DNA from: a virus
Reading direction: 5' to 3' (one strand)
Length of the DNA stretch: 64,000 bases
Virus record (IMG/VR): IMGVR_UViG_3300043449_000692
Location: 1-64,000 of that record
The translations under genes and the position numbers were made by a program. Under the pieces are notes generated by a model. That model saw nothing but the letters and a program-made list of their open reading frames with translations. It did not search any database and was not told where the DNA came from. Each line of letters starts with the position of its first letter. The stretch's first letter is position 1. Shown one piece after another: positions 8,942 through 28,556 of this stretch.

Positions 8942-9679
8942 ATGAAGGGATTCCGCCAGTACATCTCCGAGCGTCTTGCCATTGAGGACAACCCCAATGC
9001 GTACTTCCCGCCCACCGAGCGGTACACACCGACCGCAGCGGATCGTGCATGGGATCGCCGCCAGGCGCGCAAGTACGGTGCTGTCATGGCTCGCGCCGCT
9101 GCCCTTGCGATGGCAGCAGCACGGCGCAAGAGCGGTCGCAAAGGGTTCCCGTGGATGGGTGGCGGCAACACGCCAGGCTGGTGGCATCCGCAGCGGGGGT
9201 GGTTCACCTTCTCCCACTCCGAAGACCTGCAACCGCAGTTCCATGTGACGCAGATCGTGAAAGACCCGAAGCGGTTCGGCATCTCCACCGCTGAACTGAA
9301 CAGGGCGTTGGCAGCGGAAGCGCAGTACCTGAACTCGCTGAACCGAAAGTACTACGACAGCGAAGGCACGGACTATCCCTACGATGAGGACTTTACCCGC
9401 GCCGCGATTCTGAACGGCAGCATTGATCTTGCCTACGAGGTGCAGCGTCTGGCGTACAGCAAGGGATGGCTGAAGGTGTACAGCGGCGGCAGATTCGGAG
9501 GATCGCCCACCCTTGAGGGCATGAACAACACCTCCATCCGCGCAGCACTCCGCGAGATCAGCCGCGCTCCTGCCACGCTCAACAGCGCGGACGGCATGGT
9601 GGAGGTGATTCGCGTGGGCGGTGCGCGAGGCACCGAGGTGTACAAGTGGACTCGTCCACGGGAATGGCAGACCGCATGA
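8942..9679 (+). CDS. Candidate head-packaged protein with capsid-targeting N-terminus, 245 aa
   Basis: Begins MKGFRQYISER, which fits the T4-type capsid-targeting pattern (M-K-x-F/Y-x-x-x-I/L-x-E) with a possible prohead-protease site after ISE. The remainder is not recognised: basic helices (residues 40-75), then an aromatic stretch GGGNTPGWWHPQRGWF (about 78-93) and an alpha/beta C-terminus. It is the first gene of a tight group (8942-12019) in which each gene overlaps the next by ATGA and each starts with the same kind of N-terminus. Transcription starts from the late promoter 5 nt upstream. Packaging in the head is inferred from the N-terminus only. Confidence 0.7.
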   Translation: MKGFRQYISERLAIEDNPNAYFPPTERYTPTAADRAWDRRQARKYGAVMARAAALAMAAARRKSGRKGFPWMGGGNTPGWWHPQRGWFTFSHSEDLQPQFHVTQIVKDPKRFGISTAELNRALAAEAQYLNSLNRKYYDSEGTDYPYDEDFTRAAILNGSIDLAYEVQRLAYSKGWLKVYSGGRFGGSPTLEGMNNTSIRAALREISRAPATLNSADGMVEVIRVGGARGTEVYKWTRPREWQTA

Positions 9680-10227
9680 GGTCGTTCCGCGACCATCTCC
9701 GCGAAGCCGTGCTTGCACGCAAGCCACTCGTTAAGCGAGCGGGCAAGGTGAAGTCTGATCCTAAAACTGTACAGGCACTGAAAAAAGAGTTTACTCACAA
9801 CGGTGTCACATGGATCAACTACACCGACATTGGACACGACAATCCCATGCCGTGGCTGCTTCAGAAGTGGGGGATGAGTGCCACCGAAACATCACGCGAT
9901 CTCCTGCCGCTGCTGTGGTGGGTGGACAAGAAGGGCAATGTGGTGATTTGGGAGATTCCTCCCGATCAACACGCGGGTGATGTGATCCATGACGAGATTC
10001 CCGAGTACAAGCGCGAGAGCCTGCCCCGCTTCCACGGCATGACGCAGTACCAAGGACGCATTGACCGCATTCGCAAGACCATCACCATGATCTCTGGTGC
10101 AACCGACAGCATACTCGCACAACGCGCACTGCAACGGGGCAAGGGTCGCGTTGCGTCCACGCTGTCACGAATGTTCAAGGGCTACACGATCATTGACCGC
10201 GATGCAGAAGGAGCGATTGAACTATGA
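9676..10227 (+). CDS. Candidate head-packaged protein, 183 aa
   Basis: Start MRSFRDHLREA at 9676, chosen over an in-frame ATG at 9646 because it overlaps the previous stop as ATGA and gives the capsid-targeting N-terminus with a canonical L-R-E/A cleavage site. The body is unknown; residues 60-110 contain WVDKKGNVVIWEIPPDQHAGDV, an acidic-aromatic beta region, and the C-terminus is basic. By analogy with T4 internal proteins it would be cut during head maturation and injected with the DNA. Confidence 0.7.
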   Translation: MRSFRDHLREAVLARKPLVKRAGKVKSDPKTVQALKKEFTHNGVTWINYTDIGHDNPMPWLLQKWGMSATETSRDLLPLLWWVDKKGNVVIWEIPPDQHAGDVIHDEIPEYKRESLPRFHGMTQYQGRIDRIRKTITMISGATDSILAQRALQRGKGRVASTLSRMFKGYTIIDRDAEGAIEL

Positions 10228-10748
10228 AATCGTTCACCGATCACCTCTGCGAGGGCATGGAACACGGCGACCGCCCGAAGCCGAAGCCCGAGTATTTCAA
10301 GCACCCATTCAGCATCAGCGGCAAGATCGTGCAATTGTATCCCATGTACGGTGTGCCAGTGAAGACGAAGAGTTACATCAGAATACGCTCCTCCATCGGT
10401 GATCGGGAGGGATACGCAGCAGGACAGGCTTCTCCTGGTCAGAAAGCGTATGATGCGAAGATGAGCGTGTGGCGATGGCGCGTTCGCATTCAGACAGATG
10501 AAGGCTGGATGCTCATGGGCTACATCGGCAGCACAAAGACGAAGGAATCGCTGCCGCCCATTCGCTTGGGCGATACCGTTGAAGTCACGAATCTCATTCT
10601 GTCTGTTCGCACAGGCGGAAGCCAGATGACATACGCTGATCCGTTCATCAAGGGCGGCTACAGCACAACTTCAGACAAAGAGGTGGACTACCGCTCCGCG
10701 AAGTTCTCGCGTCAACTCCACGGAAAGGTGAAGCGTAAAGCCGTATGA
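10224..10748 (+). CDS. Candidate head-packaged protein, 174 aa
   Basis: N-terminus MKSFTDHLCEG, again with an L-x-E/G site like that used by the T4 prohead protease. The remainder is beta-rich (WMLMGYIGSTKTKE, then RLGDTVEVTNLILSVRTGG), which could be an OB-like nucleic-acid-binding barrel, ending in the basic tail QLHGKVKRKAV. It overlaps both neighbours by 4 nt (ATGA). No enzyme motif is visible. Confidence 0.7.
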   Translation: MKSFTDHLCEGMEHGDRPKPKPEYFKHPFSISGKIVQLYPMYGVPVKTKSYIRIRSSIGDREGYAAGQASPGQKAYDAKMSVWRWRVRIQTDEGWMLMGYIGSTKTKESLPPIRLGDTVEVTNLILSVRTGGSQMTYADPFIKGGYSTTSDKEVDYRSAKFSRQLHGKVKRKAV

Positions 10749-12019
10749 TAGACTTCCGCTCTTATCTGGTCGAACTTTTCGAGCGTCCGTACCCTGTGCG
10801 CGAGTACAAGCGGCTCGGAAGCGGTATTGCCACATTGGAAATCACATACCATGCCCAAGTTGATGGTGGCAAGGACTTGATGATTGACATCACGAACATC
10901 GGCAAGGGATGGGAAATCAACTTCACGCTTGACGGCTCACATGAACTCACTCACGCAGGAAAACCTTATCGCATCTTGGCAACGGTGGTTGCAGCAGTGA
11001 AACTGTTTCTTAAGTGGCATACCGAAGCGTGGGGTGAGTTGCCGAAGCAGTTTGACATGATTTCCAAAACAACCGAAGGCAAGCGCGATGCGGTGTACAC
11101 TGCACTCATGCAACGGTTCGGCAAGGAGTACGGCTACAAGATTGTGAATCGTTCAACCATAAATCGTCAATTCCGTCCCGAAGATCAGCGCACCGTGACC
11201 ACGGCTAAACTGGCAGAGGCTGTTGCTGCTTCCGCCAAGCGCAAGGCTCTCCGTGTATTTGACTTTGATGACACGCTCGTACACACGAACGCGCCTGTGG
11301 GATTGGTGCGTGACGGCAAGCGTGTGCGCGACCTCACCTCTATGCGGTTCCGAGACTACATCTTGCAACCAGGCGAGTCATACGATTTCAGTGCAGCGAA
11401 TGAGGTGATTGATCCGCGACCTATTGGTGCAGTGCTGAAGGTGCTGCGTCAGGTTCTTGCACAGGGCAAGGACACCGTGATCCTCACGGGACGCGCAGAC
11501 GGAGCAGCGGTGCAGCGTTGGTTGAAGACTATCGGTATCACCATTCCCGTGTTCACGGTGGGTCACGCGGATGCCACGCACACATCCATTGCACAGCGAA
11601 AGCGTGACTGGTTGGTTAACGCAATCGAACAGGGCTACAACGACATTGAGTTTTTTGATGACAACGCAAAGAACATTCAGTATGCGAACACACTGAAATC
11701 TGAATTCCCCCACATCAAACTTCGCACCCGATTGGTGAAATACAAGTCCAAGCAGGGAGTGCATGAGGAGCGGGACTACAAAGCCGAATACGCAAAAATG
11801 TACGGTGGCGACAATCCCACTCCAAAGCAACGCCGCGCCATGAAGAAGAAGACTGCGCGAAAGCGTGTGCTTCGGCGCATGGGTCGTGAAGGTCGCTCGA
11901 ATGACGGCAAAGAGATTGACCACAAGAACGGAAACGCACTGGATTCGCGTCCGTCCAACCTGCGATTGGTGGCTCGGCACACCAACAGGTCAAAGGACAA
12001 CAACAAGTGGCGCAAATGA
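10745..12019 (+). CDS. HAD phosphatase-HNH nuclease fusion with targeting N-terminus
   Basis: A three-part protein of 424 residues. Residues 1-12 (MIDFRSYLVELF) fit the capsid-targeting pattern. Residues 168-335 are a HAD phosphatase: FDFDDTL (D173, D175), ILTGR (248), a basic residue near 286 and FFDDN (304-308); phage polynucleotide 3'-phosphatases are of this type. Residues 380-424 are a small HNH-like domain with IDHKNGNALDSRPSNLRLV. A phosphatase joined to a nuclease suggests DNA- or RNA-end processing soon after injection (inference). It is the last of four ATGA-linked genes. Confidence 0.8.
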   Translation: MIDFRSYLVELFERPYPVREYKRLGSGIATLEITYHAQVDGGKDLMIDITNIGKGWEINFTLDGSHELTHAGKPYRILATVVAAVKLFLKWHTEAWGELPKQFDMISKTTEGKRDAVYTALMQRFGKEYGYKIVNRSTINRQFRPEDQRTVTTAKLAEAVAASAKRKALRVFDFDDTLVHTNAPVGLVRDGKRVRDLTSMRFRDYILQPGESYDFSAANEVIDPRPIGAVLKVLRQVLAQGKDTVILTGRADGAAVQRWLKTIGITIPVFTVGHADATHTSIAQRKRDWLVNAIEQGYNDIEFFDDNAKNIQYANTLKSEFPHIKLRTRLVKYKSKQGVHEERDYKAEYAKMYGGDNPTPKQRRAMKKKTARKRVLRRMGREGRSNDGKEIDHKNGNALDSRPSNLRLVARHTNRSKDNNKWRK

Positions 12020-12053
12020 AAAATAGAATGCCAACGGCAACCCGCTGGCGTTA

Positions 12054-12060
12054 CTAAATA
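12054..12060 (+). promoter_or_regulatory. Late promoter CTAAATA
   Basis: CTAAATA 37 nt upstream of the ATG at 12098, with AAGGAG in the leader. Confidence 0.65.
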
Positions 12061-12097
12061 ATGGTACAAGCCAAAACCGCTTACAAGGAGAACTCTT

Positions 12098-12586
12098 ATG
12101 GCATTCACAGCAGGCTCACCCGAACTCGCAAAGGCACTCAAACTGGCATCCATTCTTTCAGCAGTACACCAGACTGGTGCTTCACTGGCAGGATATACGG
12201 GTGCAGTGTTTATCGAAAATCACGCACGGGAACTAGGATTCGGCATCACTGGCATCACTACAGCCGCCGTGTTCCCTGCTTTCGGACAGGCAGGCACCAC
12301 CACGAATGTGGCTGGCGTGCTTGGAGCGGGAAATGGATCGCTCACCGCTGCTTTGCAGAACCCCACTGGTCTGACCCGTGGAATCGGTGGAGTCGTTTTT
12401 GGTCCTCTCGCAGGAACCACAGTGGGAATCTATCTTCACAGATTTGTGCGTGACGGTTCTGATGGCGCGACTGCACAAGCAGGCACCACATTTGAGTCAT
12501 TCCGATCAGGAACCGCTATCAACGGTGGATTCACTGCTTGCGTGTTCTTCGGTGGTGCAATCGGTTCAACTGGAACTGTTTCTTGA
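12098..12586 (+). CDS. Small virion-surface-type protein, 162 aa
   Basis: Gly/Ala/Thr-rich sequence without charged clusters (GQAGTTTNVAGVLGAGNGS, then AGTTVGIYLHRF), the composition of a beta-structured or decoration-type virion protein. It has its own late promoter and a strong AAGGAG site, pointing to high late expression. It precedes the SGNH tail protein by 24 nt. The function is inferred only from composition and context. Confidence 0.6.
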   Translation: MAFTAGSPELAKALKLASILSAVHQTGASLAGYTGAVFIENHARELGFGITGITTAAVFPAFGQAGTTTNVAGVLGAGNGSLTAALQNPTGLTRGIGGVVFGPLAGTTVGIYLHRFVRDGSDGATAQAGTTFESFRSGTAINGGFTACVFFGGAIGSTGTVS

Positions 12587-12610
12587 GATAAAAAACAGGA
12601 GAAAAACAAC

Positions 12611-14479: not shown

Positions 14480-14490
14480 CAGGAATTAGT

Positions 14491-14973: not shown

Positions 14974-14974
14974 C

Positions 14975-17377
14975 ATGGAAGAACTAGAACCATACAAGAG
15001 CCTACGCACCGTGATCTTTGAGGTGCAGACCGCCACCAAGCCCACGAAGCCTGCGGAGAAGAAGCCATCCTCACAACCCGCACACAAGAGCGGAGAGGTC
15101 TGGAAGACTGCCAGTGGTTCTTTCGGCGCAAAGAACAAGGATGGAGTGGTAGACTATTTTGATTCGGAAGAAAACGCCAAGGCATGGGTCGGTGGGCAGT
15201 TCAAGCCTGCTGGTCGTGTCGAAAAGCCAGGCGACACATCTGTTCCCGTTGAATTGGATCGTGACGGTTACGAAGTTCAGCAAACCGCAGGAGGAAAGCC
15301 AGCGAATGCAAAACCCGCAACAGCCGCAGCAGTCAGACCCGCTCCTCAATCCACAGGAGCCGCCTCTAAAGCGCAAACGCCAACCACTGATACGCAGCGT
15401 CAAGCACAACCGCAAAGTAGCGAAACAGGTGCAGCGGAAACCGAAGAACACCCAGAAGTAGGCAAAGCCAATCCAAAGACCGAGTTTGACCCCCATATCA
15501 AACTTGATCCAAAGGCTACAGAGAAAGCCAAGGCGAAGACAGACATCCGCAAGGCGAATGTGGTTGCAAAGGCGGTGAAGGCTGGCGAATTAGACGGACC
15601 GCAGACTGATGCAGAGTCTGTGTTTGGTGATGCCTCTGCGGAGCAGCGGTTCGTGGAGGAAATGAATCACGCCGCTCTTTCTGCCATGCGTGGAGAAGCG
15701 GCATACGACTTTGAGTTGTGTTCGGAAGTGTTTGCCCACCTTGGTCTGTGCTTTGATCCGAAGACAAAGGAAAAGGTCAGCAAAGGCATTCCACGCGATC
15801 AGATGCCGCAGTTCTCGTCACAGGTTGATCCGTCACGCACGGATTCGCCTGCGTTCATTGCGCTCATGCGCGGCAAGGGCTACACCTCTCCTGATCAGGT
15901 CACAACAGAAGACCTGAAGTCCGAGGTGAACATGGAGCGCGAGTTCCGCAAGGCACTCGAAGACGCAGGCTACGAGATCGCGGACGAAGAGGTGAGCGTG
16001 ACCTCGCTGAAGCCCATTCAAGGACAACTGAAGGGCGAGAAGATTGCGGGAATGTACGGTACGCTTGCTGCTGCACAGAGCGATCCGCAGAACTACGGCA
16101 AGGCAGCAGCGCGTCTGCTTGAACCCATCTATGTGAGCGATGGCTATGTGATTGATGGTCACCACCGTTGGGCAGCACAGGTAGCGATGGATATCGCAAA
16201 CGGAGCGGGTGCAAACGCAACCATGAAGACCCGTACCATCACGAAGAGCGGTAAGTCCGTGCCTGTTGAAGAGATCATTAAGTTCTCGAACAAGTTTCAG
16301 AAAGACATCGGGCTGCTGAGTCAGACACGAGGCGGCGAAACAATTCCAGAGAAGAAACCAACACAGAAGGAATGGACTATGAGCAAGTTTGGAAGCGGTC
16401 GTTTCGGTCGTATCGTGCAGTCACTTCACGAATCAGCGCAGACTCGTCTTGACGAAGGCGCAGTCAAGGCAGCAATGGAAGACTGGTACGAATCACTGCC
16501 CAAAGAAGCAGTACAAGAAATCTACAGATACCGAAAGTACGCTGCTTTTGGACGCGCGCTTGAAGGCGAGATACCTCCTGCATATCGTTCTGTTCTAGGC
16601 GGCAACAGTGTAGAACTTATTACTAGCATTCTTAGAAACCACCGTGTAAAGCCTGGCATCTTTGGAACACTGAAGAAGGCAGCGCAGCACATCAAAGACA
16701 TGGGCTACGAAGATTTCATGGTTCCCATGTTCGACCTCAACGAGGCGGCAAAGCGCAAGTTCGACAGAACTCCCGCACTCGGAACCTTCCGCTCGGGAAT
16801 GCAGATCGACACCGATGATCCGCAGTACTACGCTGGCGCACTGAAGTCGAAGCCTCGCAAAACTGATGCGGCAGGAAACCTACTGAAGACCGCAAAACAG
16901 CAGGACAAGGCTAGTGCGGGCTGGCAGAAGACGCAGCAAACCGTTCAGCAGAACATTGCTACCGCTCAAGACCTGATCGACACCGTAGAGATGAAGCCCG
17001 TGGGAACCACATTCGAAATCTACGGCAAGAAGGGCGGCAAGGAAGCCACCATCAAGGTGAAGAAGGTTATGAAGATGGGAGATGTGGTGTTCATGGTCGG
17101 AACCACGGAGGTGGAACTGTATGCCGCAGGCACGGGTCTTCAGGTGCTGAACAAGAAAACGCGCAAAGCCGTGCTTGACGCTGGTAACGACATGATCTGG
17201 GAGAGCGAAGACTTTACCGATGTGGGTCGGATCGTGATCAACGAAATTCGCAAACTCACGAAGGACGAACTGGCGAAGTTTGATGCAGAGCAGCGCAAGA
17301 AAGTCATGGCTGCAAAGGATGCTGCAATCAACAAGCGTGCTGCTCAAGGTAAGGCTGCTTGGTCTAAAATGAAGTGA
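14975..17377 (+). CDS. Large candidate head-packaged protein with ParB-like domain
   Basis: A protein of 800 residues from the ATG at 14975 (GGAG 6 nt upstream). The N-terminus ends in SLRTVIFEV, an I-x-E site that parallels SLQRIIFEE in the gene at 18618. Residues about 25-190 are an Ala/Pro/Lys/Gln-rich linker. Around 340-430 lies a ParB/sulfiredoxin-like domain with the diagnostic DGHHRWAA near residue 393. The rest is helical and ends in QGKAAWSKMK, which matches the beginning of the next protein. ParB-like proteins bind or cut DNA and some hydrolyse CTP; packaging is inferred. Confidence 0.7.
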   Translation: MEELEPYKSLRTVIFEVQTATKPTKPAEKKPSSQPAHKSGEVWKTASGSFGAKNKDGVVDYFDSEENAKAWVGGQFKPAGRVEKPGDTSVPVELDRDGYEVQQTAGGKPANAKPATAAAVRPAPQSTGAASKAQTPTTDTQRQAQPQSSETGAAETEEHPEVGKANPKTEFDPHIKLDPKATEKAKAKTDIRKANVVAKAVKAGELDGPQTDAESVFGDASAEQRFVEEMNHAALSAMRGEAAYDFELCSEVFAHLGLCFDPKTKEKVSKGIPRDQMPQFSSQVDPSRTDSPAFIALMRGKGYTSPDQVTTEDLKSEVNMEREFRKALEDAGYEIADEEVSVTSLKPIQGQLKGEKIAGMYGTLAAAQSDPQNYGKAAARLLEPIYVSDGYVIDGHHRWAAQVAMDIANGAGANATMKTRTITKSGKSVPVEEIIKFSNKFQKDIGLLSQTRGGETIPEKKPTQKEWTMSKFGSGRFGRIVQSLHESAQTRLDEGAVKAAMEDWYESLPKEAVQEIYRYRKYAAFGRALEGEIPPAYRSVLGGNSVELITSILRNHRVKPGIFGTLKKAAQHIKDMGYEDFMVPMFDLNEAAKRKFDRTPALGTFRSGMQIDTDDPQYYAGALKSKPRKTDAAGNLLKTAKQQDKASAGWQKTQQTVQQNIATAQDLIDTVEMKPVGTTFEIYGKKGGKEATIKVKKVMKMGDVVFMVGTTEVELYAAGTGLQVLNKKTRKAVLDAGNDMIWESEDFTDVGRIVINEIRKLTKDELAKFDAEQRKKVMAAKDAAINKRAAQGKAAWSKMK

Positions 17378-17385
17378 GGTGACTC

Positions 17386-18621
17386 TTGGCAACCACAGGC
17401 AAGGCTGCTTGGGCAAAATACTTCAACACGGGCAAGAACATTGAAACCGTTCTGAAGAAGCAGTCCAAGATTTTTGATGTTGAAACCGAAAGGGAAATCG
17501 GTAGCCTTGATGTGGGAACCGAGATCGTGTTCATCACCACGAAGGCTTTTGAGAAAAAACCTACGGTCAAAGTTGTAAAGACTAAAAAAGTTGTCCGTGT
17601 CGAGTTTGACAAGATTGCAAAACCTGGTGTTCGATCAAGCACAGCCGCAAGTCTGAAGCCACAGGCATTTGGTGTAAAGGATCAAGAGTATCCGTTCAAG
17701 AGTTATGCCAAACTCATACGCGAAAACATTGAAGAACGAAAAGACCTCAAAGGCGATGTTCGTGCTTATCTGTCTGCTCTGATTGAATACGCAGATGATC
17801 CGTCTGCAAAAAACAAAGCAGCGGTTCAGAAAACCTACAAGGCTGCTGCATCGGTTCCGACAGCAGACATCGTGAAGGATTTCGGAGAGGTGGCTGGACC
17901 GTTTGGTGTATTGAGCGGCAAACTCATCGGTGGTCTATCCGAAGCAAACACGGCAGTGTACATTCCTGCTCGTCCAAACGAGCCGCTGATGGATTACGCT
18001 GTGATCAACACAGCGAAGAAGCGCAAGTATGTGATCTCTGCAAAGTCGGGAACCACATCTAATGTGGTGAAGCCAGCAGACATCATCAACCTCATCAACA
18101 AAGTTCCTTCAAAGAAAACAAAGTGGAGCAGAACCACACAATACAAGGTTCTTGAGATATTGGGTGCAGCAAGCATACTGCACGGACCAGTCCTTGCCGC
18201 TGCATATCTGAACGGTGAAGGATTCAAAGAGTTCGGCGGCATATCACAAAAGGCTGCTGATGATTTCGTGAAAAAGGTAAAGGGTGGTTCTTCCACCGCA
18301 TACGACAAGGCTTTGTTTGCAAAGTTCATTTCAGGAAATGCGTACTTGAAGACAAAGAAGACGCCCACAGCAAACGAAATAATGTACGAGTGTGAAAAAG
18401 CCATAGGTGCGCTGTCGAAGACACCGAAACTCGATTTTACCAAACTATTCCGTGATGCGGTGGACGAACAGGTTTACTACATCAAGTTCGCCATAGATAA
18501 TACTGGCATTCCAGATTTCGATCTCATTGGAGACACGCCTGAAGAACTGAAGGCAACAGTGTTTCTCCGCAGCAAAAACGGATACACACGCGCATCCGAC
18601 AGGATAGGTGTTCAAATATGA
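17386..18621 (+). CDS. Hypothetical late protein, 411 aa
   Basis: TTG start at 17386 with GAGG 6 nt upstream. It begins ATTGKAAWAKYF, nearly repeating the end of the preceding protein (QGKAAWSKMK), at both DNA and protein level. Residues 190-230 hold PLMDYAV followed by YVISAKSG, which could be a D...x-x-K nuclease-like core with Ser in place of the usual Glu; this is weak. The C-terminus is alpha-helical. I do not recognise the family. Its position between two candidate packaged proteins suggests a role in the head. Confidence 0.6.
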   Translation: MATTGKAAWAKYFNTGKNIETVLKKQSKIFDVETEREIGSLDVGTEIVFITTKAFEKKPTVKVVKTKKVVRVEFDKIAKPGVRSSTAASLKPQAFGVKDQEYPFKSYAKLIRENIEERKDLKGDVRAYLSALIEYADDPSAKNKAAVQKTYKAAASVPTADIVKDFGEVAGPFGVLSGKLIGGLSEANTAVYIPARPNEPLMDYAVINTAKKRKYVISAKSGTTSNVVKPADIINLINKVPSKKTKWSRTTQYKVLEILGAASILHGPVLAAAYLNGEGFKEFGGISQKAADDFVKKVKGGSSTAYDKALFAKFISGNAYLKTKKTPTANEIMYECEKAIGALSKTPKLDFTKLFRDAVDEQVYYIKFAIDNTGIPDFDLIGDTPEELKATVFLRSKNGYTRASDRIGVQI

Positions 18622-19157
18622 AACCATTCAAAGACCTACGCGACCACGCATTCTGCTCCCTGCAAAGAATAATCTTTGAGGAGTTCGATGCCGAACTCAC
18701 CGAAGAGAAGATCGTGCTTGATATGCCCAACTTCTCCCATGAGGATGTCGTGGACTATTTGGAACAGGAAGGCATCGAATGGGAAGAGAAGGACGGCGTG
18801 ATCTACATTCTTGATCCTGTGGAGGAAGCAGAGATCACCGTTGAAGTGGAAGAGAATGAAGAAATTGATGAAGAGTTTGAAGTAGAGAGTCAGATGTTGA
18901 ACGAGGTCGCTGCGAAGCGTAAGATAGTGGTACGCAAAGGCAAGAAGCGAATCATCTTCAAGTGCGCTCCAGGCTTCAAGAAGAAGGGTGCAAGAGTGTG
19001 CGTGAAGCGTCCCGCTTCTCAACTACGCAAGATGAAACTCACGGCAAAGCGCACCGCACGAAAGACCCGTGGTAAGCGGGCGCAAGCCAAGCGCAAGCGT
19101 AAACTGTCCCTGCGAAAGAGACTCACATTCGGATTGCGACCAAGAAAGAAGAAGTAA
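18618..19157 (+). CDS. Acidic-then-basic head core/internal protein candidate
   Basis: A protein of 179 residues, overlapping the previous gene by ATGA. N-terminus MKPFKDLRDHAFCSLQ is followed by RIIFEEF, an I-x-E site. Residues 25-95 are strongly acidic (DPVEEAEITVEVEENEE); residues 100-179 are extremely basic, with runs of Arg and Lys (KAKRKRKLSLRKR type) suited to binding DNA. This split of charges resembles prohead core and internal head proteins of T4-like phages, which are cut and partly retained with the DNA. There is no enzyme motif. Confidence 0.7.
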   Translation: MKPFKDLRDHAFCSLQRIIFEEFDAELTEEKIVLDMPNFSHEDVVDYLEQEGIEWEEKDGVIYILDPVEEAEITVEVEENEEIDEEFEVESQMLNEVAAKRKIVVRKGKKRIIFKCAPGFKKKGARVCVKRPASQLRKMKLTAKRTARKTRGKRAQAKRKRKLSLRKRLTFGLRPRKKK

Positions 19158-19160
19158 AAC

Positions 19161-20003: not shown

Positions 20004-20014
20004 AGGAGAACACT

Positions 20015-20194: not shown

Positions 20195-20195
20195 A

Positions 20196-20864
20196 ATGAA
20201 AACATTTGATCATGCGTTCGTGAGCCTGAACGACCAAATTGAAAGCGTTGAAACCCCAAACGGCAGGAGATACCGAACTCCTGACGGCATTCTTCCGTCC
20301 GTGACTACGGTTACAGGATGGAAGAAGCGTGCATTTTTTGCAAAGTGGCGGCGTGAAAATCCTGAAGAATCCAAGCGAGTACTGTCCCGTGGCACCAAAC
20401 TACACGCACTTATTGAAACCTATCTCCGCAACAGTCTTACGCCAACTACGCTCGCTGAAGCGGAGGGAACAAGTGAGGCGGATCTGTTTGCATCCATGCG
20501 GGAAGATATTGACCGCATCGGCAAGATATACGCCATCGAAGTACCGCTATGGTCTAAAAAAGTGGGACTCGCTGGTAGGACGGACTGCATCGGGGAGTTT
20601 GATGGTGTACCGTCAGTCATCGACTTCAAGTCTTCCAATTATCCGAAGTCCGAGGATGCCATTCAGGACTATTTCATGCAAGCCACCGCGTATTCTCTCA
20701 TGTGGCAGGATCGCACGGGTCAAGAACTGCGAAATATTGCCATTCTGATCGGTGTGGAAGACGGTGGTTCACAGGTGTTCACAGCCGATCCCCGCGAGTA
20801 CATTGCTGATTTGGTGGACGCAATTCGCACATACCGCGAGGAACAGGCAGTCCAAATTTCCTAA
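20196..20864 (+). CDS. PD-(D/E)XK exonuclease (RecB/Cas4-like)
   Basis: A protein of 222 residues from MKTFDHAF. The features of a RecB-family nuclease are in order: RGTKLHALIE (about 67-76, the HxxxE-type helix), VGLAGRTDCIGEF (about 125-137, with the first Asp), VIDFKSS (the D-x-K core) and QATAYSLMW (the Q-x-x-x-Y motif). These enzymes degrade or trim DNA ends. A domain of this size is found in phage and mitochondrial (MGME1-like) exonucleases. Its stop codon lies inside the late promoter of the next gene. Confidence 0.85.
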   Translation: MKTFDHAFVSLNDQIESVETPNGRRYRTPDGILPSVTTVTGWKKRAFFAKWRRENPEESKRVLSRGTKLHALIETYLRNSLTPTTLAEAEGTSEADLFASMREDIDRIGKIYAIEVPLWSKKVGLAGRTDCIGEFDGVPSVIDFKSSNYPKSEDAIQDYFMQATAYSLMWQDRTGQELRNIAILIGVEDGGSQVFTADPREYIADLVDAIRTYREEQAVQIS

Positions 20865-20867
20865 ATA
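20861..20867 (+). promoter_or_regulatory. Late promoter CTAAATA overlapping a stop codon
   Basis: CTAAATA contains the TAA stop of the exonuclease gene. It lies 18 nt before the TTG start at 20886, with GGAGG in the leader. Confidence 0.65.
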
Positions 20868-20885
20868 CGGAAGCGGAGGACTGCA

Positions 20886-22094
20886 TTGATCAGATTCACG
20901 GAACATCTCACGGAAGCCTTCAAATCAAAAAGTGGCAAGAATGTCCATTTGGAGCATCTTGAAGACGAAATACTGAATGGTGGCTACGCAGGATTCAGCC
21001 GTGCGGTTTCTGCTATCCGTGGAGTGCTTGATGTATTCGGAGCAAACGAGCCAAGCACATACGACATCACCGTGAAGTGGGACGGCGCACCCGCCATCAT
21101 CTGCGGAATCGACCCAGGCAGCGGTCGATTTTTTGTTGGCACGAAGAGTGTGTTCAATGTGACACCTAAACTGAACTTCACGAACGCCGACATTGATGCG
21201 AACCACCCCGCAGATGGACTGAATGCTAAACTCAAACTTGCACTAAAGCATTTCTCCAAACTAGGAATTCGTGGAGTGCTGCAAGGCGATCTGCTGTTCG
21301 ACAGCGAAACAGTGCAGCGTGAAACGATTGACGGCAATCGGTATCTGACATTCCGCGCAAACACAATCACATACGCGGTTGATCCAAAGAGCGAACTCGG
21401 CAAGCGGATTGCCGCTGCAAAGATCGGAATTGTGTTCCACACAGCATACGAGGGCGACTCGTTGCAGACGATGACTGCAAGATTCAATCCCGACATTTCG
21501 TATCTAAAGAAGACCCGCGATGTGTGGTTCGACAACGCAACTCTGCGTGTGGCAGATGGCAGCGGATTGTTCTCTGCGCGTGATCGTCAAGCGGTAGAGC
21601 GCAGCATCGACACCCTGACACAGCAAGCCGCTGCACTGAAGACCACGATGAACGGTATTGCCAAGAACGAAGGCGTGAAGATCGCCATCAAGACCTACAT
21701 CAACGGACTTGTTCGTGCAAACATGGGCAGCGGTCACGCAGATGTGAATCAGTTGCTGGCAATGATGGCACAGAAAGCACAGACTGCGCGAAAGAAGCCA
21801 AGCACAAAGACCACTCCAAGCATGGATTGGATCAAGCGGAATCGCAACCAGATCAATCAGATTTTCGCCCTACATAATTCGTTGACCGTGCTGAAGATGA
21901 GCATCGTCAGCAAACTGTCTTCACTCAAGAGTGGGATGGGAACATTTGTAAAGGACGGCAAGGGATACCGTGTTACCGCTCCCGAAGGCTATGTGGCAAT
22001 CGACCGCATGAGCAACGCAGCCGTCAAACTAGTAGACCGCCTTGATTTCTCGCGCAGTAACTTCACTGTAGAGAAGACTTGGAAAAAAGAGTAA
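20886..22094 (+). CDS. KxDG nucleotidyltransferase (ligase-like) with targeting N-terminus
   Basis: TTG start at 20886, justified by GCGGAGGA 6 nt upstream. The N-terminus (M)IRFTEHLTEAF has a canonical L-T-E/A prohead-protease site. KWDG at residues 64-67 (VKWDGAPAI) is motif I of covalent nucleotidyltransferases such as ATP-dependent DNA and RNA ligases; GVLQGDLLF and GIVFHTAY may correspond to later motifs. The C-terminal 150 residues are helical and unknown. It is likely to be an end-joining or capping-type enzyme carried in the virion (inference); the acceptor substrate cannot be told from sequence. Confidence 0.75.
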   Translation: MIRFTEHLTEAFKSKSGKNVHLEHLEDEILNGGYAGFSRAVSAIRGVLDVFGANEPSTYDITVKWDGAPAIICGIDPGSGRFFVGTKSVFNVTPKLNFTNADIDANHPADGLNAKLKLALKHFSKLGIRGVLQGDLLFDSETVQRETIDGNRYLTFRANTITYAVDPKSELGKRIAAAKIGIVFHTAYEGDSLQTMTARFNPDISYLKKTRDVWFDNATLRVADGSGLFSARDRQAVERSIDTLTQQAAALKTTMNGIAKNEGVKIAIKTYINGLVRANMGSGHADVNQLLAMMAQKAQTARKKPSTKTTPSMDWIKRNRNQINQIFALHNSLTVLKMSIVSKLSSLKSGMGTFVKDGKGYRVTAPEGYVAIDRMSNAAVKLVDRLDFSRSNFTVEKTWKKE

Positions 22095-22136
22095 CGAGCA
22101 GTTGGTGTCTGAAGTGCAATATCGGAGGTGATCCCC

Positions 22137-23207
22137 GTGGCAAAACAGGTTAGAGGTAAATCTCAGTCTGCGCGACCAGGCAAAACCATCGTGGTTGCAT
22201 TCGGTCGCTTTCAGCCACCTACTTCTGGACACCAACTGCTCGTTGACACAGTGGTGGAGACTGCCAAGAAGCACGGCGCAGAACACGCCATGTTCAGTAG
22301 TCGCACCAATGATCCCAAAAAGAATCCGCTCTCTCCAAAACAGAAGTTCGGATATCTGAAAAAGTTCTTTCCCGAAGGCAACTTCATCGACAACGCAAAG
22401 ATCAAGAATCCCGTGGATATGCTGTTCTGGCTTGCGGACAAGGGATACGATCATGTGCTGTTGGTTGGTGGTCAAGACCGTGAGGGAGCATACGAGGCGT
22501 TCAAGGACATGATGAAGCCCACGGCTACCGAGCCGCTGAAACTGAAGTCGCTGAACATCGTGAGCGCAGGCAAGCGCAACGAGGACGCAAAGGGTGTGCA
22601 GGGCATGAGCGCGTCCAAACTCCGCGCAGCCGTGGCAGCAAACGACATGGCGACATTCAAGAGCGGTATGCCTCGCCGTGCAAACCAACGGGATGTGGTT
22701 GCCCTGTTCAAGGACTTGCAACGAGGCATGGCGGCTGCTCCTGCAAAGCGCAAGAAGACGATGAAGGAAGGCTTTGACTTCCAAGACCTGTACTCGGCTG
22801 CGGCTATACGCCTCATGGAGAGCGACAAGTACAAGCGGCGACCTCCAACGCCTGGTCAGACGGGTGGGTTCTCCAAGCACAACAAAATATTCCCCACACC
22901 GCCTTGTAAAATAGACGAGGACTTGTCGCGGTGGTTCAAGGAGAAATGGGTGAACATTGGTGGGCGGAAAGACCCCAAAACTGGACAGTATCCCCCGTGT
23001 GGTCGCTCTGACACCTCCAAGGGCAAGTACCCAAAGTGCCGTCCCCTCCACAAAGTCAGCAGCGAAACCCCCGAAACGGTGGGTGAGATGACTCCAAAAG
23101 AGAGGAAACGCGCCGTGATTCAAAAAAGGCGGGTGGAACCTGAAACAGATCGCAGCGGAAAAGGCAACGCCCCCCGTATGACGAGCCATCTGAAAAAATC
23201 TAAATAA
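22137..23207 (+). CDS. NMNAT-like nucleotidyltransferase fused to a DUF5872-like domain
   Basis: GTG start at 22137 behind GGAGGTGA. Residues 16-200 are a cytidylyltransferase-type fold: AFGRFQPPTSGH (the H/T-x-G-H motif at 29-32) and GMSASKLRAAV (156-166, the second nucleotide-binding motif), as in NMN adenylyltransferases. Residues 266-330 contain WVNIGG, PPCGRS, YPKCRP and MTPKERKRAV, the pattern of the DUF5872-type domain seen in phages and large eukaryotic viruses (from memory). The fusion suggests nucleotide transfer linked to an unknown small basic domain. Its stop overlaps the next late promoter. Confidence 0.75.
   Translation: MAKQVRGKSQSARPGKTIVVAFGRFQPPTSGHQLLVDTVVETAKKHGAEHAMFSSRTNDPKKNPLSPKQKFGYLKKFFPEGNFIDNAKIKNPVDMLFWLADKGYDHVLLVGGQDREGAYEAFKDMMKPTATEPLKLKSLNIVSAGKRNEDAKGVQGMSASKLRAAVAANDMATFKSGMPRRANQRDVVALFKDLQRGMAAAPAKRKKTMKEGFDFQDLYSAAAIRLMESDKYKRRPPTPGQTGGFSKHNKIFPTPPCKIDEDLSRWFKEKWVNIGGRKDPKTGQYPPCGRSDTSKGKYPKCRPLHKVSSETPETVGEMTPKERKRAVIQKRRVEPETDRSGKGNAPRMTSHLKKSK
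23200..23206 (+). promoter_or_regulatory. Late promoter CTAAATA overlapping a stop codon
   Basis: CTAAATA shares bases with the TAA stop of the preceding gene (23205-23207); 21 nt later comes the ATG at 23228 with CAGGAGA. Confidence 0.65.
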
Positions 23208-23227
23208 AGGGACAACAGGAGACTACT

Positions 23228-24103
23228 ATGGAACCAATGGGCAAAACCCCTGCCATCGCATCTAAACTGAATACCCTGCTCCGCATGGGGTTGGTGTCGA
23301 AGAACAATGTTCGCCGCGCCATGACCCTGTTTGCCGATCCTGATCGTGCAATGAAGAACCCTGCGTACCGTCTGCTTATGCAGGAAATCCTCATGGATGT
23401 TGTAGACCGTGTACTGAACAACAAGACCTTGTACACCGCCATTCGTTCGTCCCTTGCAAAGGAACCCACCACAGTCATCGAAAGCGTTGCTGGTGAGCGC
23501 ACGAAGACTCTCCTCCGCAGCGGACTAGTGAAGAAGAAGGATGTACTCGCTGCTCGCCGCGCATTGGAGTCTCCCGCCAAAGCCAAGAGCATGGGCGCGT
23601 CCAAGGTATACCGAGACATGATGATTACCATGCTCGACTCAATGGTGAGCAAGATCACGGGTTCGCCTGTGCTGTTCAATGCGTTCAAGGCTACGCTCGG
23701 CAAGGAAACCGTTGAAGAGTCGTTTGATGTTCCCACGCAGGAAGGCATGGATCTGTTCTGGTTCTGCGAGGACGCGCAAGCACTCATGGAGAAGAACAAG
23801 CCCACGAAGCCTGAACTGTGGTCACGCGCCAAAGCCAAGGCTCGCGCCAAGTTTGATGTGTATCCGTCTGCCTACGCCAACGGTTGGGCAGTGAAGTGGT
23901 ACAATGAGCAGGGTGGCGGATGGAAGAGTGTCAGCGAAGGCAAGACCTTTTCTGTTTTCTCCAAGGAGATTGCCGAAGGCTCCACACAGATGAACAAGAA
24001 CACCATTCAACAGAATGCAGAAATGCGTAAGAGGGCGAGAGAACTGCGCTACAAACTAGAGAGTGAGCAGGGACAAAAGAAAGATAAAAAGGAAACCACA
24101 TGA
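23228..24103 (+). CDS. Protein with two helical repeats and a KFxVYPSAYAN domain
   Basis: A protein of 291 residues. Residues about 15-79 and 93-160 are tandem copies of one helical unit (LRMGLVSKNNVRRA versus LRSGLVKKKDVLAAR, each ending in a SSLAKE or ATLGKE step). Residues 185-232 hold KPELWSRAKAKARAKFD, then VYPSAYANGWAVKWY and GGGW, a small domain that in my memory often accompanies the DUF5872-type domain found in the gene upstream. The C-terminus is a charged helix. It overlaps the next gene by 4 nt. Function unknown; late expression is indicated by its promoter. Confidence 0.65.
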   Translation: MEPMGKTPAIASKLNTLLRMGLVSKNNVRRAMTLFADPDRAMKNPAYRLLMQEILMDVVDRVLNNKTLYTAIRSSLAKEPTTVIESVAGERTKTLLRSGLVKKKDVLAARRALESPAKAKSMGASKVYRDMMITMLDSMVSKITGSPVLFNAFKATLGKETVEESFDVPTQEGMDLFWFCEDAQALMEKNKPTKPELWSRAKAKARAKFDVYPSAYANGWAVKWYNEQGGGWKSVSEGKTFSVFSKEIAEGSTQMNKNTIQQNAEMRKRARELRYKLESEQGQKKDKKETT

Positions 24104-25995
24104 GCGAACACAAGAGATTCAAGGCATTCCGCAGCGAACTGAACGAGAGCGAGTACAAGGAAACCCTCACGGGCTATCCCAATCGCGGCATTGACACCGA
24201 TGTTGGTGCAGTAAAGCAGGATGCGGACACCATTCAGAAGATCAACGGTGTTCTCGCTGCTCTTGGTCGCTACACCTATCAGCACACTGCTGAAGCCATG
24301 ATCAAGATCCGCACACGCCTCAATCTCTTTATGATCGACTTCCCGTGGACTCCGTGGATGTGGCAGAGCAATCCCACTGGCACATTCACGCTGAACGCCA
24401 CCCTGTACGGTCGCGTAGACGGCGTTGATGGCATGGGCGGAAACATCCGCTTTGACGGCAAGGCTAATCCCAATGCTGGCATGAAGGAGTTTGCGCTTGT
24501 GGTGACCGTGGAGCCTGCCGAAGACGGCTTCTACCGCGTGAACGCCAAACTACAGCCACAGATTGCAGTCATGCCAGAGGGCGTGGAGCATGAAGGCGAC
24601 AGCCTTGACGAAGGAAAGGGTCAGGAAGCCCTTGCACAGCAAGTGGTGAAGCAGGGCAAGAAACTGAAGAAACTGAAGAGCGCGATGAAGGAGGAAGCCG
24701 AACTGGACGAGATGGCACAGACTCCTGCTCGTCAGCGCGACATGGAACACGCGATTCAGCGTGCCGAAGCCAAGGCTCAACGCGGCTACGAAGCCAAGAT
24801 GACCAAGACGGGCAAGGCTGGTGAGCGTGGACGCAAGCAGGAAGCCAAGCACGATGCTGCTTCTCGCCGCCTGATTGCGCGTGACACAAAGGAATACGAT
24901 TCGCCCAAACTGTACGGTCGCGGCGGCAAGGTAGTGAAGGGCAAGCGAAAGCCTGTGAAGGAAGAAGCCGAGCAGATTGACGAATTGAGCAAGAAGACGA
25001 AAGACGCATATGTTGCCAAGCGTGGTTCGCAACTGTCGTCCATGTTGAGCGGACACACCCGTGGCAAGCAACTCACGGGCAAGCAGCAAGCCAATGCCGT
25101 CAAGGGCATCAAGACGGCTATGGGCGGGAACAAAGATAAATCCAAACTCCCCAAACTACTGCCAAGACTGGCTACATTTACATTTGGAGAAGAACTCGTT
25201 GGCGGTCAGAAGCGACTTGATGTCAACAAGAACAAGCGACTTGACGCACAGGACTTCAAGATGCTTCGCTCCAAAAAGAAGCCAGTAGAAGAAGCACTCA
25301 TCGGCGGACAGAAGCGGTTGGATGTGAACAAGAACAAGCGTCTTGACTCACAGGACTTCAAACTGCTCCGTGCGAAGAAGAAGCCAATGCAGGAGCAGGA
25401 GCAGAAGAAGCCGTGGTGGATGACCTCTACCGCAGCAGAACTAGCCGCCGCTGCTCAATCTGCTTCGGACGCTCGTAAGGGTGAAGAAGCGGAGAAGCGC
25501 AAGCGTCATACACAGCAGAACCGCCGCATGAAGTGGACGCTTGCGGACAAAGCGCAGGGAAAGAAGACGGTTAAGGAAGAGACTGTAGAGGAAGCCAAGA
25601 TGAAGCAGTGGACTCCTCGTTTGGACAGACTCTTGAGCAGCAGTCGTGACGCTGTTCGCAGCAAGCCCAAGAAGAAGATCCCTGTGACCAAAATCAAGGA
25701 CGGCAAGAAGGTGTCCACCAAACTCATTTCAGCGTACACGCCAAAGAAGGCTGTGAATGAGTACGCCGAGACTATGGGCGGCATCCCGCTCGCTGTCCCC
25801 GATCCCACCGCTGCGATGGCTGACAAGAGCGGCAAGGGCAAGCGGTTTCACAAGAAGGCTCTCATTTCCGTGAAGGAAGCCGTTGCAAAGGGCAAGAAGA
25901 GCAAGAAGCCAAGCCCACACCAAGGCGCGGCTAATGTGATCGGCAAGCAGAAGGCGATCAAGTCAACCCTGCAAAAGCACGATATGCGTTGGTGA
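24100..25995 (+). CDS. Lys-rich late protein with EF-hand-like tandem repeats, 631 aa
   Basis: Residues 1-165 form a folded domain; the remainder is long, basic and low in complexity. Around 365-435 a 34-residue unit is repeated twice: GGQKRLDVNKNKRLDAQDF and GGQKRLDVNKNKRLDSQDF, each with a 12-residue D-x-N-x-N-x-R-L-D loop like an EF-hand or dockerin calcium loop. It also has EQIDELSKKTKDAYV, a segment seen in many T4-like marine phage proteins (from memory). KRFKAFRSELNESE near the start could be a targeting/cleavage site. It is a candidate prohead core or internal protein. Confidence 0.65.
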   Translation: MSEHKRFKAFRSELNESEYKETLTGYPNRGIDTDVGAVKQDADTIQKINGVLAALGRYTYQHTAEAMIKIRTRLNLFMIDFPWTPWMWQSNPTGTFTLNATLYGRVDGVDGMGGNIRFDGKANPNAGMKEFALVVTVEPAEDGFYRVNAKLQPQIAVMPEGVEHEGDSLDEGKGQEALAQQVVKQGKKLKKLKSAMKEEAELDEMAQTPARQRDMEHAIQRAEAKAQRGYEAKMTKTGKAGERGRKQEAKHDAASRRLIARDTKEYDSPKLYGRGGKVVKGKRKPVKEEAEQIDELSKKTKDAYVAKRGSQLSSMLSGHTRGKQLTGKQQANAVKGIKTAMGGNKDKSKLPKLLPRLATFTFGEELVGGQKRLDVNKNKRLDAQDFKMLRSKKKPVEEALIGGQKRLDVNKNKRLDSQDFKLLRAKKKPMQEQEQKKPWWMTSTAAELAAAAQSASDARKGEEAEKRKRHTQQNRRMKWTLADKAQGKKTVKEETVEEAKMKQWTPRLDRLLSSSRDAVRSKPKKKIPVTKIKDGKKVSTKLISAYTPKKAVNEYAETMGGIPLAVPDPTAAMADKSGKGKRFHKKALISVKEAVAKGKKSKKPSPHQGAANVIGKQKAIKSTLQKHDMRW

Positions 25996-26013
25996 TCCCA
26001 ATGCTTTTTTATC

Positions 26014-26400
26014 ATGGACTTCAAAGTATTGAACCGCGATAATTTCATGTTGTATTGCATGGGGAACTACACGAACCCCGATTGCTTGGGCATGAGCGAA
26101 TTCACAGAAGACTTGGCTCGGATCAAGTATGTGAAACGGCTCCTCAAGCGGTACAAGCGAACGGGAAACCTGCGAACCATACTCCTCCTGAACCACCTGA
26201 TGGTGCTAGGGAATGTGTTTGGCAGGACTCCTGCTGCGCGTATGCTGTTTCATAAATTGGAATGCGACATACACGCACCACTGAAAACAGTGTTGCTGTA
26301 TTTGGACTACATAGATGAGCGGTCTGTTTTTGATGGCGTTTCCGTGGAAGATATTTCAATTGACGAACGGCTTGCACAAATACTCCGAGGACTCACATGA
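26014..26400 (+). CDS. Small conserved T4-like phage protein, 128 aa
   Basis: The segments NFMLYCMGNYTNPDCLG and EFTEDLARIKYVKRLLKRY, then LLLNHLMVLGNVFG, form a mostly helical protein. I associate these segments with a small conserved protein of T4-like cyanomyoviruses encoded near late genes (from memory; not searched). There is no clear ribosome site before the ATG at 26014, so the start is uncertain. It overlaps the next gene by 4 nt (ATGA). Role unknown. Confidence 0.7.
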   Translation: MDFKVLNRDNFMLYCMGNYTNPDCLGMSEFTEDLARIKYVKRLLKRYKRTGNLRTILLLNHLMVLGNVFGRTPAARMLFHKLECDIHAPLKTVLLYLDYIDERSVFDGVSVEDISIDERLAQILRGLT

Positions 26401-26879
26401 GCAGTTCAGCAGCAATACCGATGTTTCAAACCACTCCACGGGCGTGGTGTGTGGTTTCCAATCACGAAACCGCTGCTACACCAACCCGAGCATCTTTTGA
26501 TGAAATGAACTTTGTTGACGGCTACAACCTGTACATCAGTGCAGACTCGCAAACCAGTACGACAGGTACGGCAGGTCAAAATAATAAGACATATCAAGGC
26601 GCAATCAAGTTTTCTTTTGTGACACCCATGCCCAACGACAGGTACAAAGTATTCGTGAACGCATATCGTCAAGCAGGACTGCCGTTCATGTGCCATGCTC
26701 TGAATTCAGCGCAGTATCCAAAGACCCGTGAATCGTTCTGGGTTCGTGTTGGGTATTGGCTGACAGGTAGTGTTGGAGTAAATGAGCCAATAACAGGATC
26801 GGGACGCACGAAGAATCAGATTGGAAACATTCGTCTGTGGAGTAATGGATCAACGGTACTCGGAGTGTATGTGCTATGA
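26397..26879 (+). CDS. Virion surface-type protein, 160 aa
   Basis: Beta-rich, Ser/Thr/Gly/Asn-rich protein with no charged clusters; MSSSAAIPMFQTTPRAW at the start and WVRVGYWLTGSVG in the middle. It is ATGA-coupled to the genes on both sides, and the following protein begins with the same MSSS. This suggests two subunits of one fibre or surface appendage. The assignment rests on composition and context only. Confidence 0.6.
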   Translation: MSSSAAIPMFQTTPRAWCVVSNHETAATPTRASFDEMNFVDGYNLYISADSQTSTTGTAGQNNKTYQGAIKFSFVTPMPNDRYKVFVNAYRQAGLPFMCHALNSAQYPKTRESFWVRVGYWLTGSVGVNEPITGSGRTKNQIGNIRLWSNGSTVLGVYVL

Positions 26880-28381
26880 GCAGTTCTGTATCAAACTTTG
26901 GCTCGTCTGCCACTCCACTCCCTTCCGCTGACGCATGGGGAAATCTAAAACTAGGAACAAGCACTGTTGCTGCATCCGTAGTAAACGGCAGTGGGATATC
27001 CTCTGTTCAAAGAAACTCAACAGGAATACACGGGATCAGTTTCAGTGATCCAACTCGCTTCGGAAGCGGTGCGTATGTGTTTCTTGTCACGCCAGAATAC
27101 GCCTCCAATTCTGTTGGACCGTTTGTGGTTTCTGGTGTGAAGGAAGGTGGAGTCACTGCGCCAGGATTCAGCGCAGGGTTTGCTCTTTCGTGCTACGGTT
27201 TTCAAACTCCTGCTGTTGCAGGTGGTTTTACCATCAGTGGTCCTTTAGACGCTCCCACGAATACAGTTTGGGCTAATGTGGCAGCGTTCTCTTTCAAGAC
27301 CACCCGCGACCTGTACGATCCGTATGTTGCGAATCTTATACAGTACAGCGAAGACTTGACACAGTGGAGTAATATCATATCAGGAACTGGTGTGAATCCG
27401 ATTGTGGAATCAAATGTTGAACCTAATCCTGTAACAGGGGAAATGAACGCAGACAAGATTACCCTGAACATCGGTGCAACATCGGCAAACACGAGTGATT
27501 ATTCTATTCTGGCTAGAAATGTACAATTTAATTCTGATTTCAGGGGAGTGACTGGACCGAACGGATTATTTACTTGGTCGTTTTGGGCAAAGAGTGCAGG
27601 GTTAGGAACCACACTTTCTATTCGTGGACCTGCTGGTGGTGCTTACACTCATATTACCCTTACATCGAACTGGAAGCGGTATAGCGGGACAGAACAGATT
27701 GCAAATTCAGCAGCAACCAGCATGAGTGGAATGAACTTCACTCTTCGCGGTAATTATGATTCAGGTCTGAATCAATCAAAGGTGTCTGCTTATATTTGGG
27801 GAGTTCAGGTAGAGCCAGGCTCTGTGGCTTCTCCTTATGTGAAGACGGAAGGCACATATCCCGTGTTCGGAAACCAAGACGCAAAGAAAAGATTTGTGCC
27901 TGGTGCATCGGGATACGGACTCACTGGCGCAACATACTCGTCAAGCATCACTGCACTGAACTCGACTCGCACACCAACAGCATACGGAACCATCGTGATT
28001 CCTCCGAAGAAGCATGACGGAACCGATGCAAATGTGGTTGCATACATTCAAGACGGCTACAATGTGAGCGGAGTTTCAGCAGGAGACTACTCGGTGTTTG
28101 ATGTCTCGTTCATCAAACCTCTGAACACTGCTAACTACTGCGTGATACTCAGCAGAGAAATCGAACCACAATACGCGGCAGCAGACTACGCACAGACCTA
28201 TGAGTACGCAATCTGCGCGATTGACCGCTCACAGAAGACTGTGAATGGATTCAGGGCTTTCACCCTGAAGCAAATGGAAACCACAAACAACATTCAGAAG
28301 CGCGGAGTGGCTTACGGATTGGGCTTGACGGAAAGAATCCACTTTATGGTTTTCGGAGGAGGCACATATGGACAATCGTAA
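26876..28381 (+). CDS. Probable tail/surface protein with carbohydrate-binding-like domain
   Basis: A protein of 501 residues, Ser/Gly/Thr-rich. In the middle, NLIQYSEDLTQWSN followed by a beta-sandwich-like stretch (TWSFWAKSAGLGTTLSI, VQVEPGSVASPYVKT) is the pattern of the carbohydrate-binding-like modules (CBM/LamG type) common in phage tail proteins. The C-terminal part has VPGASGYGLTGATYSSS and an aromatic beta domain. It overlaps the next small gene by 14 nt. It probably contacts the host surface (inference). Confidence 0.65.
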   Translation: MSSSVSNFGSSATPLPSADAWGNLKLGTSTVAASVVNGSGISSVQRNSTGIHGISFSDPTRFGSGAYVFLVTPEYASNSVGPFVVSGVKEGGVTAPGFSAGFALSCYGFQTPAVAGGFTISGPLDAPTNTVWANVAAFSFKTTRDLYDPYVANLIQYSEDLTQWSNIISGTGVNPIVESNVEPNPVTGEMNADKITLNIGATSANTSDYSILARNVQFNSDFRGVTGPNGLFTWSFWAKSAGLGTTLSIRGPAGGAYTHITLTSNWKRYSGTEQIANSAATSMSGMNFTLRGNYDSGLNQSKVSAYIWGVQVEPGSVASPYVKTEGTYPVFGNQDAKKRFVPGASGYGLTGATYSSSITALNSTRTPTAYGTIVIPPKKHDGTDANVVAYIQDGYNVSGVSAGDYSVFDVSFIKPLNTANYCVILSREIEPQYAAADYAQTYEYAICAIDRSQKTVNGFRAFTLKQMETTNNIQKRGVAYGLGLTERIHFMVFGGGTYGQS

Positions 28382-28556
28382 AATCAAGAAATTCTCTGCA
28401 TTCGTAAGTGAAGAATTTCCACCACCAATTTCTGCTCCCACGAATGTGGCTTCTGGTGAAAATATCGCGGGTTTGCCTCCCGATCTTCCGCCAGTTTCCA
28501 CCGCTGCACAGCGAAAGAAGTCAAAAATTCTAAAGCGGAAACTGCCCAAGACCTAA
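28368..28556 (+). CDS. Small candidate head protein with targeting-like N-terminus, 62 aa
   Basis: Begins MDNRKIKKFSAFVSEEF, close to the T4 targeting pattern F-x-x-F-I/V-x-E, then a Pro-rich stretch (PPPISAPTNVAS, GLPPDLPPVS) and a basic end KILKRKLPKT. Its 14-nt overlap with the tail gene upstream suggests coupling. The stop codon lies within the late promoter CTAAATA that serves the holin-like gene. Related Pro-rich short proteins occur in T4-like cyanophages (from memory). Confidence 0.6.
   Translation: MDNRKIKKFSAFVSEEFPPPISAPTNVASGENIAGLPPDLPPVSTAAQRKKSKILKRKLPKT

Follow-up and report, generated by a model that had tools for sequence, protein, structure and literature searches.

In phage T4 and other T-even phages, internal proteins (IPs) with unrelated bodies carry one common N-terminal leader, an observation credited to Repoila (1994) in PMC12373910. 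In IPIII of T4, residues 4 and 7 of this capsid-targeting sequence (CTS) act mainly in targeting and residues 8 and 10 in processing, the first ten residues being sufficient, and the leader has been suggested to be a general mechanism of T4-like phages (PMC9026906). Here, we analyzed bases 1–64000 (the window) of IMG/VR record IMGVR_UViG_3300043449_000692, a linear sequence of 96,211 bases of which the window makes up two thirds, and found that five of its proteins begin with a motif, or tag, that matches the T4 CTS. We consider it very probable that this motif is a T4-type CTS and that proteins bearing it are packed into the head, processed, and delivered to the next host; packaging, cleavage, and injection of the proteins of this phage would follow by analogy.

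The closest described systems are IPI, IPII, and IPIII of T4 and at least ten IPs of T-even phages (PMC9026906, PMC12373910), which share with the present proteins the register of the N-terminal 10-mer, the unrelated bodies, the gp21-type protease, and a gene content that varies at a locus. T-even IPs measure ~8–20 kDa, whereas the bodies described here are larger (20–87 kDa), include several enzymes and some fusions, belong to another phage lineage, and exchange the tag between partners. T4 Alt is a head-packed enzyme that undergoes gp21 processing and ejection (PMC9026906); however, it has a 7-residue propeptide rather than an IP-type leader (PMC9026906). An earlier, sequence-only reading of the window, which had credited the internal proteins and Alt with the same leader, was thus right about the 10-mer of IPII and IPIII and wrong about Alt. 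No ADP-ribosyltransferase was recognized among the tagged proteins here. The ejection proteins of SPN3US and phiKZ-type phages are likewise numerous, head-packed, and cut by a prohead protease (PMC5694885, PMC10052503), but belong to a distant giant-phage head system, whereas the present record combines a T4-type gp21 with the T4 IP leader. Enzymes have also been reported in virions of the cyanophages S-CREM2, S-SZBM1, and S-SCSM1 (PMC10665884, PMC9146016, PMC9602691); a homologue of one window protein (encoded at 22128) is among them, but the other cargo enzymes differ and no targeting tag was described by the authors.

Occurrence of the motif in the record

The record comes from a T4-related bacteriophage of fresh water. 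Its closest matches are uncultured phages, and its closest annotated relatives are Kyanoviridae. The window contains T4-like replication genes (gp43-type polymerase, gp41 helicase, and gp61 primase), and the remainder of the record has open reading frames (ORFs) taken to be portal, core, protease, scaffold, capsid, tail, and terminase genes; of these, only the protease was confirmed by profile, the others being recognized from sequence and order. This protease, without which the sequence-only reading would have fallen, is of the Peptidase_S77/gp21 type (PF03420, E=3.9e-42).

The motif M-x-x-F-x-x-[YH]-[IL]-x-E begins five proteins, all encoded on the plus strand and all located where the earlier reading had placed them. 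With a slash marking the predicted cut, these are a 245-residue protein at 8942–9679 (MKGFRQYISE/R; isoelectric point (pI) 9.8), a 183-residue protein at 9676–10227 (MRSFRDHLRE/A), a 174-residue protein at 10224–10748 (MKSFTDHLCE/G), a 424-residue protein at 10745–12019 combining a HAD phosphatase of the polynucleotide-kinase type with an HNH nuclease (MIDFRSYLVE/L; phrog_415, 2e-10; HNH_3, 4e-7), and a 402-residue DUF6267 protein at 20886–22094 (MIRFTEHLTE/A; PF19782, 1.8e-100), whose start codon is TTG and whose N terminus is read M-IRFTEHLTEAF. The four genes between 8942 and 12019 overlap through ATGA. The tag is kept in homologues of the 8942 product (relatives L028 and L030), of the 9676 product (L015, L016, L018, L028, and L030), and in nine homologues of the 10745 product, and the motif is retained within families spanning 40 to 97% identity. 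All-against-all BLASTP of the bodies, which had been called unrelated, returned only chance matches (best E 0.08), one of them being residues 1–12 of the 9676 and 10224 products, that is, the tag itself; the leader is the sole resemblance among these proteins. The tagged proteins are also basic (pI 8.8–10.0, against a median of 6.3 for the other ORFs; p=5e-6).

When all six frames of the 96-kb record were searched with F..[HYF][ILV].E, nine occurrences were obtained. Five lie exactly three codons past a start, one lies at offset 8 (28368), and the other three fall in the gp22-like scaffold (LFEAHINER) and in two short ORFs of 47 and 60 amino acids. With an internal rate of 1.06e-4 and 233 candidate starts, ~0.025 tagged starts would be expected; four were counted (P=1.5e-8), the fifth, 8942, having been omitted by the crude gene set used. 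The pattern was picked after the tags had been seen; its key positions, however, are those published for T4. With a broader pattern, two of three internal matches in the record fall in the scaffold.

Further loci carry looser forms of the motif. The 62-residue mini-protein at 28368–28556 (plus strand; KKFSAFVSE/E, with a basic tail) has the same motif shifted five residues inward, and the tag is kept in most homologues. The basic, core-like protein at 18618–19157 (plus strand; QRIIFE/E; phrog_3503 head scaffolding, 1.5e-6) departs from the pattern, while its homologues in L035, L039, and L041 have the canonical tag MKSF..[IL]L[TA]EA (MKSFSELLAEA, MKSFLQILTEA). At 14975–17377 (plus strand), an 800-residue protein (phrog_2859, 3e-13) has the divergent site SLRTVIFE/V, which is conserved among relatives as YKSLxxxI[FL]EV; as a tag it is doubtful. 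Thus, the three looser tags proposed previously are good for 28368, supported through homologues for 18618, and questionable for 14975, whose former "ParB-like" label found no backing in Pfam. Two candidates can be added to that list. The 631-residue basic protein at 24100–25995 (plus strand) has an N-terminal L-x-E/S site (FRSELNE/SEYKE, conserved as FRxxLxESEYKE) and is possibly a cargo or core protein; on the minus strand at 1–80, an ORF truncated where the record stops starts MKKYTQHMKEL and is possibly another tagged protein. The 24100 product also contains two near-identical EF-hand-like repeats (GGQKRLDVNKNKRLDxQDFK). The core-like protein has a CxPG[FY]K...C motif at 18963 that it shares with proteins of relatives that are tagged or occur in virions (S-CREM2 ORF15, S-CRM01_131, S-SZBM1_192, and L182).

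Match to the T4 capsid-targeting sequence

T4 IPII and IPIII start MKTYQEFIAE/A, in a register identical to that of the window tags. Positions 4, 7, 8, and 10 are exactly those preserved in the window, and all five tags are in exact register. Alanine follows the predicted cut in 52 of 101 distinct tags of relatives, a feature absent from the search pattern. The same string occurs in T4 gp23 at residues 59–65 (FGSFLTE/A), the end of its 65-residue propeptide (PMC9026906). The gp23-like capsid protein of the present record has an L-x-E site (QQMLTE/G), and L-x-E sites are found in the scaffold as well.

A DNA-level pattern scan of whole phages gave 21 matches against six in a reversed control; because the scan is loose, it served for finding cases, and no statistic was built on it. 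In T4, the scan returned ipII, ipIII, and gene 61.1, plus one match with Leu at position 7, outside the strict motif. The uncharacterized gene 61.1 (NC_000866, 18966–19130, minus strand) starts with a perfect CTS-like sequence, MKTFKEFIKED, and its product is a candidate further internal protein. Homology between the 61.1 product and the 28368 mini-protein was considered and rejected: the layout is similar, but BLASTP gave no alignment.

Tagged proteins in virions of relatives

Two complete proteomes, S-CREM2 and S-SZBM1, were tested, the choice of proteomes and the relaxed pattern being our own. Among the 52 proteins reported for the S-CREM2 virion (PMC10665884, Table 3) are all three ORFs with a strict tag (p=0.011), namely the S-adenosylmethionine (SAM) hydrolase ORF6, the kinase ORF14, and the cytidylyltransferase ORF154. 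Under the relaxed pattern, 5/6 tagged proteins were in the virion, compared with 44/209 untagged ones (p=0.0026). ORF12, also a virion protein, has RFASFMAEA farther inside, and no known tail or replication protein of S-CREM2 carries the tag. For S-SZBM1, 30 virion proteins were reported (PMC9146016, Table 1); the tagged cytidylyltransferase 140 (MRFRQFIIEA) was detected and its untagged DUF6267 neighbor 141 was not. Pooling both phages and allowing a register shift of one gave 6/10 tagged against 73/423 untagged proteins (p=0.0035). The kinase of S-CRM01, which starts MISFDQFLSEK, is likewise reported from virions, according to PMC10665884. In the same phage (L271, 3046–3441), an annotated acetyltransferase starts MKTFDEFLTE.

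Several points weigh against head packaging and delivery as the explanation. In S-SZBM1, the tagged proteins 191 and 192 were not among the 30 detected, leaving one of three tagged proteins found, and the CsCl preparations may hold contaminants, as noted by the authors of PMC10665884. The virion evidence comes from relatives of this uncultured phage, and its cleavage and injection steps are predicted from T4. Finally, some phages (L064, L066) have a DUF6267 protein with neither a tag nor a tagged partner.

The tag as a separate module

Across 71 uncultured relatives, the tag was found on 19 body clusters (made by BLASTP), or, when more loci are included, on roughly 20 to 25 bodies, among them a few that are unlikely to be genes. 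The body of the 10224 product occurs either alone with its own tag or, untagged, as the rear part of fusions with three different partners. Every such fusion bears a single tag, at the N terminus of the chain, and the aromatic residues have been lost from its internal junction. Cargo content differs between close relatives. In L018 (780–3721), five consecutive genes are tagged, a likely cargo hotspot.

The DUF6267 gene is followed at 22128–23207 (plus strand) by an NMNAT/cytidylyltransferase-like partner (phrog_3041, 4e-49) that is untagged in this clade and tagged in most cyanophages, including S-CREM2 and S-SZBM1; here, the DUF6267 protein carries the tag instead. Among non-redundant DUF6267/NMNAT-like pairs, the tag is on DUF6267 only in 31, on the neighbor only in 42, on both in 2, and on neither in 28; these counts come from few clades and are not independent events. 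Most of the 28 untagged pairs are of the Pelagibacter-phage type, in which DUF6267 starts with a short L-x-E just ahead of the body. Because the two domains are joined in one chain in an S-PM2 protein and in phrog_455, a complex of both proteins bearing a single tag is plausible. The match of the DUF6267 protein to its family covers residues 19–397 (337 bits against a curated cut-off of 27), leaving the tag outside, and its structure model becomes confident at about residue 20, the stretch ahead of this being modeled with very low confidence; a disordered start ahead of an ordered body is what would be expected for an appended leader. Taken together, the fusions and partner swaps show the tag to be a module of its own, one that stays at the N terminus of a chain.

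The CTAAATA element

No exact T4 late promoter TATAAATA was found in the record; CTAAATA was found instead, with 18 copies on the coding strand and one on the other. Directly upstream of gene starts lie 11 of these 18 (P=3e-10), preceding 8942, 20886, and other cargo genes and also head and tail genes. On the plus strand, the copy at 8930–8936, a presumed late promoter, stands ahead of the tagged operon, and that at 20861–20867 stands ahead of the DUF6267 gene with a 25-nt spacing kept in relatives, among which CTAAATA spacing is conserved. At 8942 the spacing is 12 nt, a short distance for a promoter. CTAAATA is likely the late promoter of this phage group; on this reading, co-expression of cargo and virion genes is probable.

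Possible functions of the cargo

The sequence KWDG is invariant in 41 DUF6267 sequences, and the KxDG motif is a feature of ligases and capping enzymes. In Foldseek searches, the DUF6267 model matched DNA and RNA ligases weakly, the best E-value in the PDB being 0.06; the fold searches thus weakly support a ligase-like protein. No profile match of DUF6267 to solved ligases was obtained, and comparison with PDB sequence profiles gave nothing relevant for DUF6267 or for the NMNAT-like family. For the 10224 product, the model (predicted local distance difference test score 67) is too poor for a fold call, Foldseek giving unrelated and OB-like proteins at weak E-values. We hypothesize that DUF6267, its partner, and the HAD-HNH protein act on nucleotides, nicotinamide adenine dinucleotide (NAD+), or nucleic acids at entry. 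Counter-defense is the closest known use, since T4 IPs inhibit GmrSD restriction enzymes (PMC12373910). A defense-related function was sought with PADLOC without a match. Taken to mean an attack on the host, the "arsenal" of the earlier reading is just one use that the cargo might have.

Discussion

Late in infection, the N-terminal 10-mer would bind the scaffold core while the prohead forms and bring each protein inside, where the gp21-type protease would cut after residue 10 (L/I-x-E) at the time of scaffold and capsid protein cutting. The mature basic proteins would remain with the packaged DNA, be ejected with it into the next host, and could act there ahead of phage gene expression. One tag per chain, perhaps per complex, would suffice: here the tagged DUF6267 protein may bring its untagged NMNAT-like neighbor, and in most cyanophages the reverse may hold.

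The alternative that survives best, though we judge it unlikely, is that the tagged proteins are core or scaffold components whose tag and cut serve head assembly, the pieces being degraded or left behind and nothing useful being injected. In T4, gp21 cuts core proteins too (PMC9026906), the 18618 product resembles a head scaffolding family, and the gp22-like scaffold shares the motif. However, several of the bodies are enzymes (the HAD-HNH and KWDG proteins, and the kinase-like and SAM lyase-family proteins of S-CREM2), the cargo is variable among close relatives, and enzymes are present in mature virions. It is very improbable that the motif docks proteins to another late structure, such as the tail, baseplate, portal, or replisome: the cyanophage genes do sit between the gp41 and gp61 replication genes and most tagged proteins have no known function, but the motif contains the prohead protease consensus, recurs in the scaffold and T4 gp23, agrees with the T4 CTS position by position, and is missing from the known tail and replication proteins of S-CREM2. 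Chance, or common ancestry of duplicated genes, is hardly credible. For the tight tags it is refuted by five cases against 0.025 expected and by bodies without mutual similarity, and conservation across divergent families speaks against it too, even if some tagged genes stand in tandem (L018) and copying may help the tag to spread; an individual loose case, such as 14975, could still be explained in this way.

Head packaging and delivery by a T4-type CTS is therefore our preferred explanation, and the earlier proposal of a delivery tag shared by unrelated enzymes gains support from the virion proteomes of relatives, the fusions, and the partner swaps. New are the reach of the leader into this lineage, a cargo that is large and enzymatic, the evidence from fusions and partner swaps, and a connection to virion enzymes that were published but unexplained; apart from a T4 review, no paper joining cyanophages and capsid targeting was found in a search that left subscription papers outside. 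More broadly, and tentatively, as possible rather than probable, the T4 CTS may serve T4-like aquatic phages at large as a delivery code that is both general and mobile. Interchangeable enzymes set behind it, with pairs such as DUF6267 and the NMNAT-like protein loaded one tag per complex, would arrive ready-made and act on nucleotides, NAD+, or nucleic acids of the host as they enter it, possibly against host defense. The motif provides a readable sequence rule for the proteins that a T4-like phage packs in its head. It points to some 20 candidate cargo families among phages that abound in aquatic habitats, makes sharp predictions in laboratory phages, such as 61.1 of T4 being a further internal protein, and could explain the enzymes reported by cyanophage proteomics as puzzling virion components.

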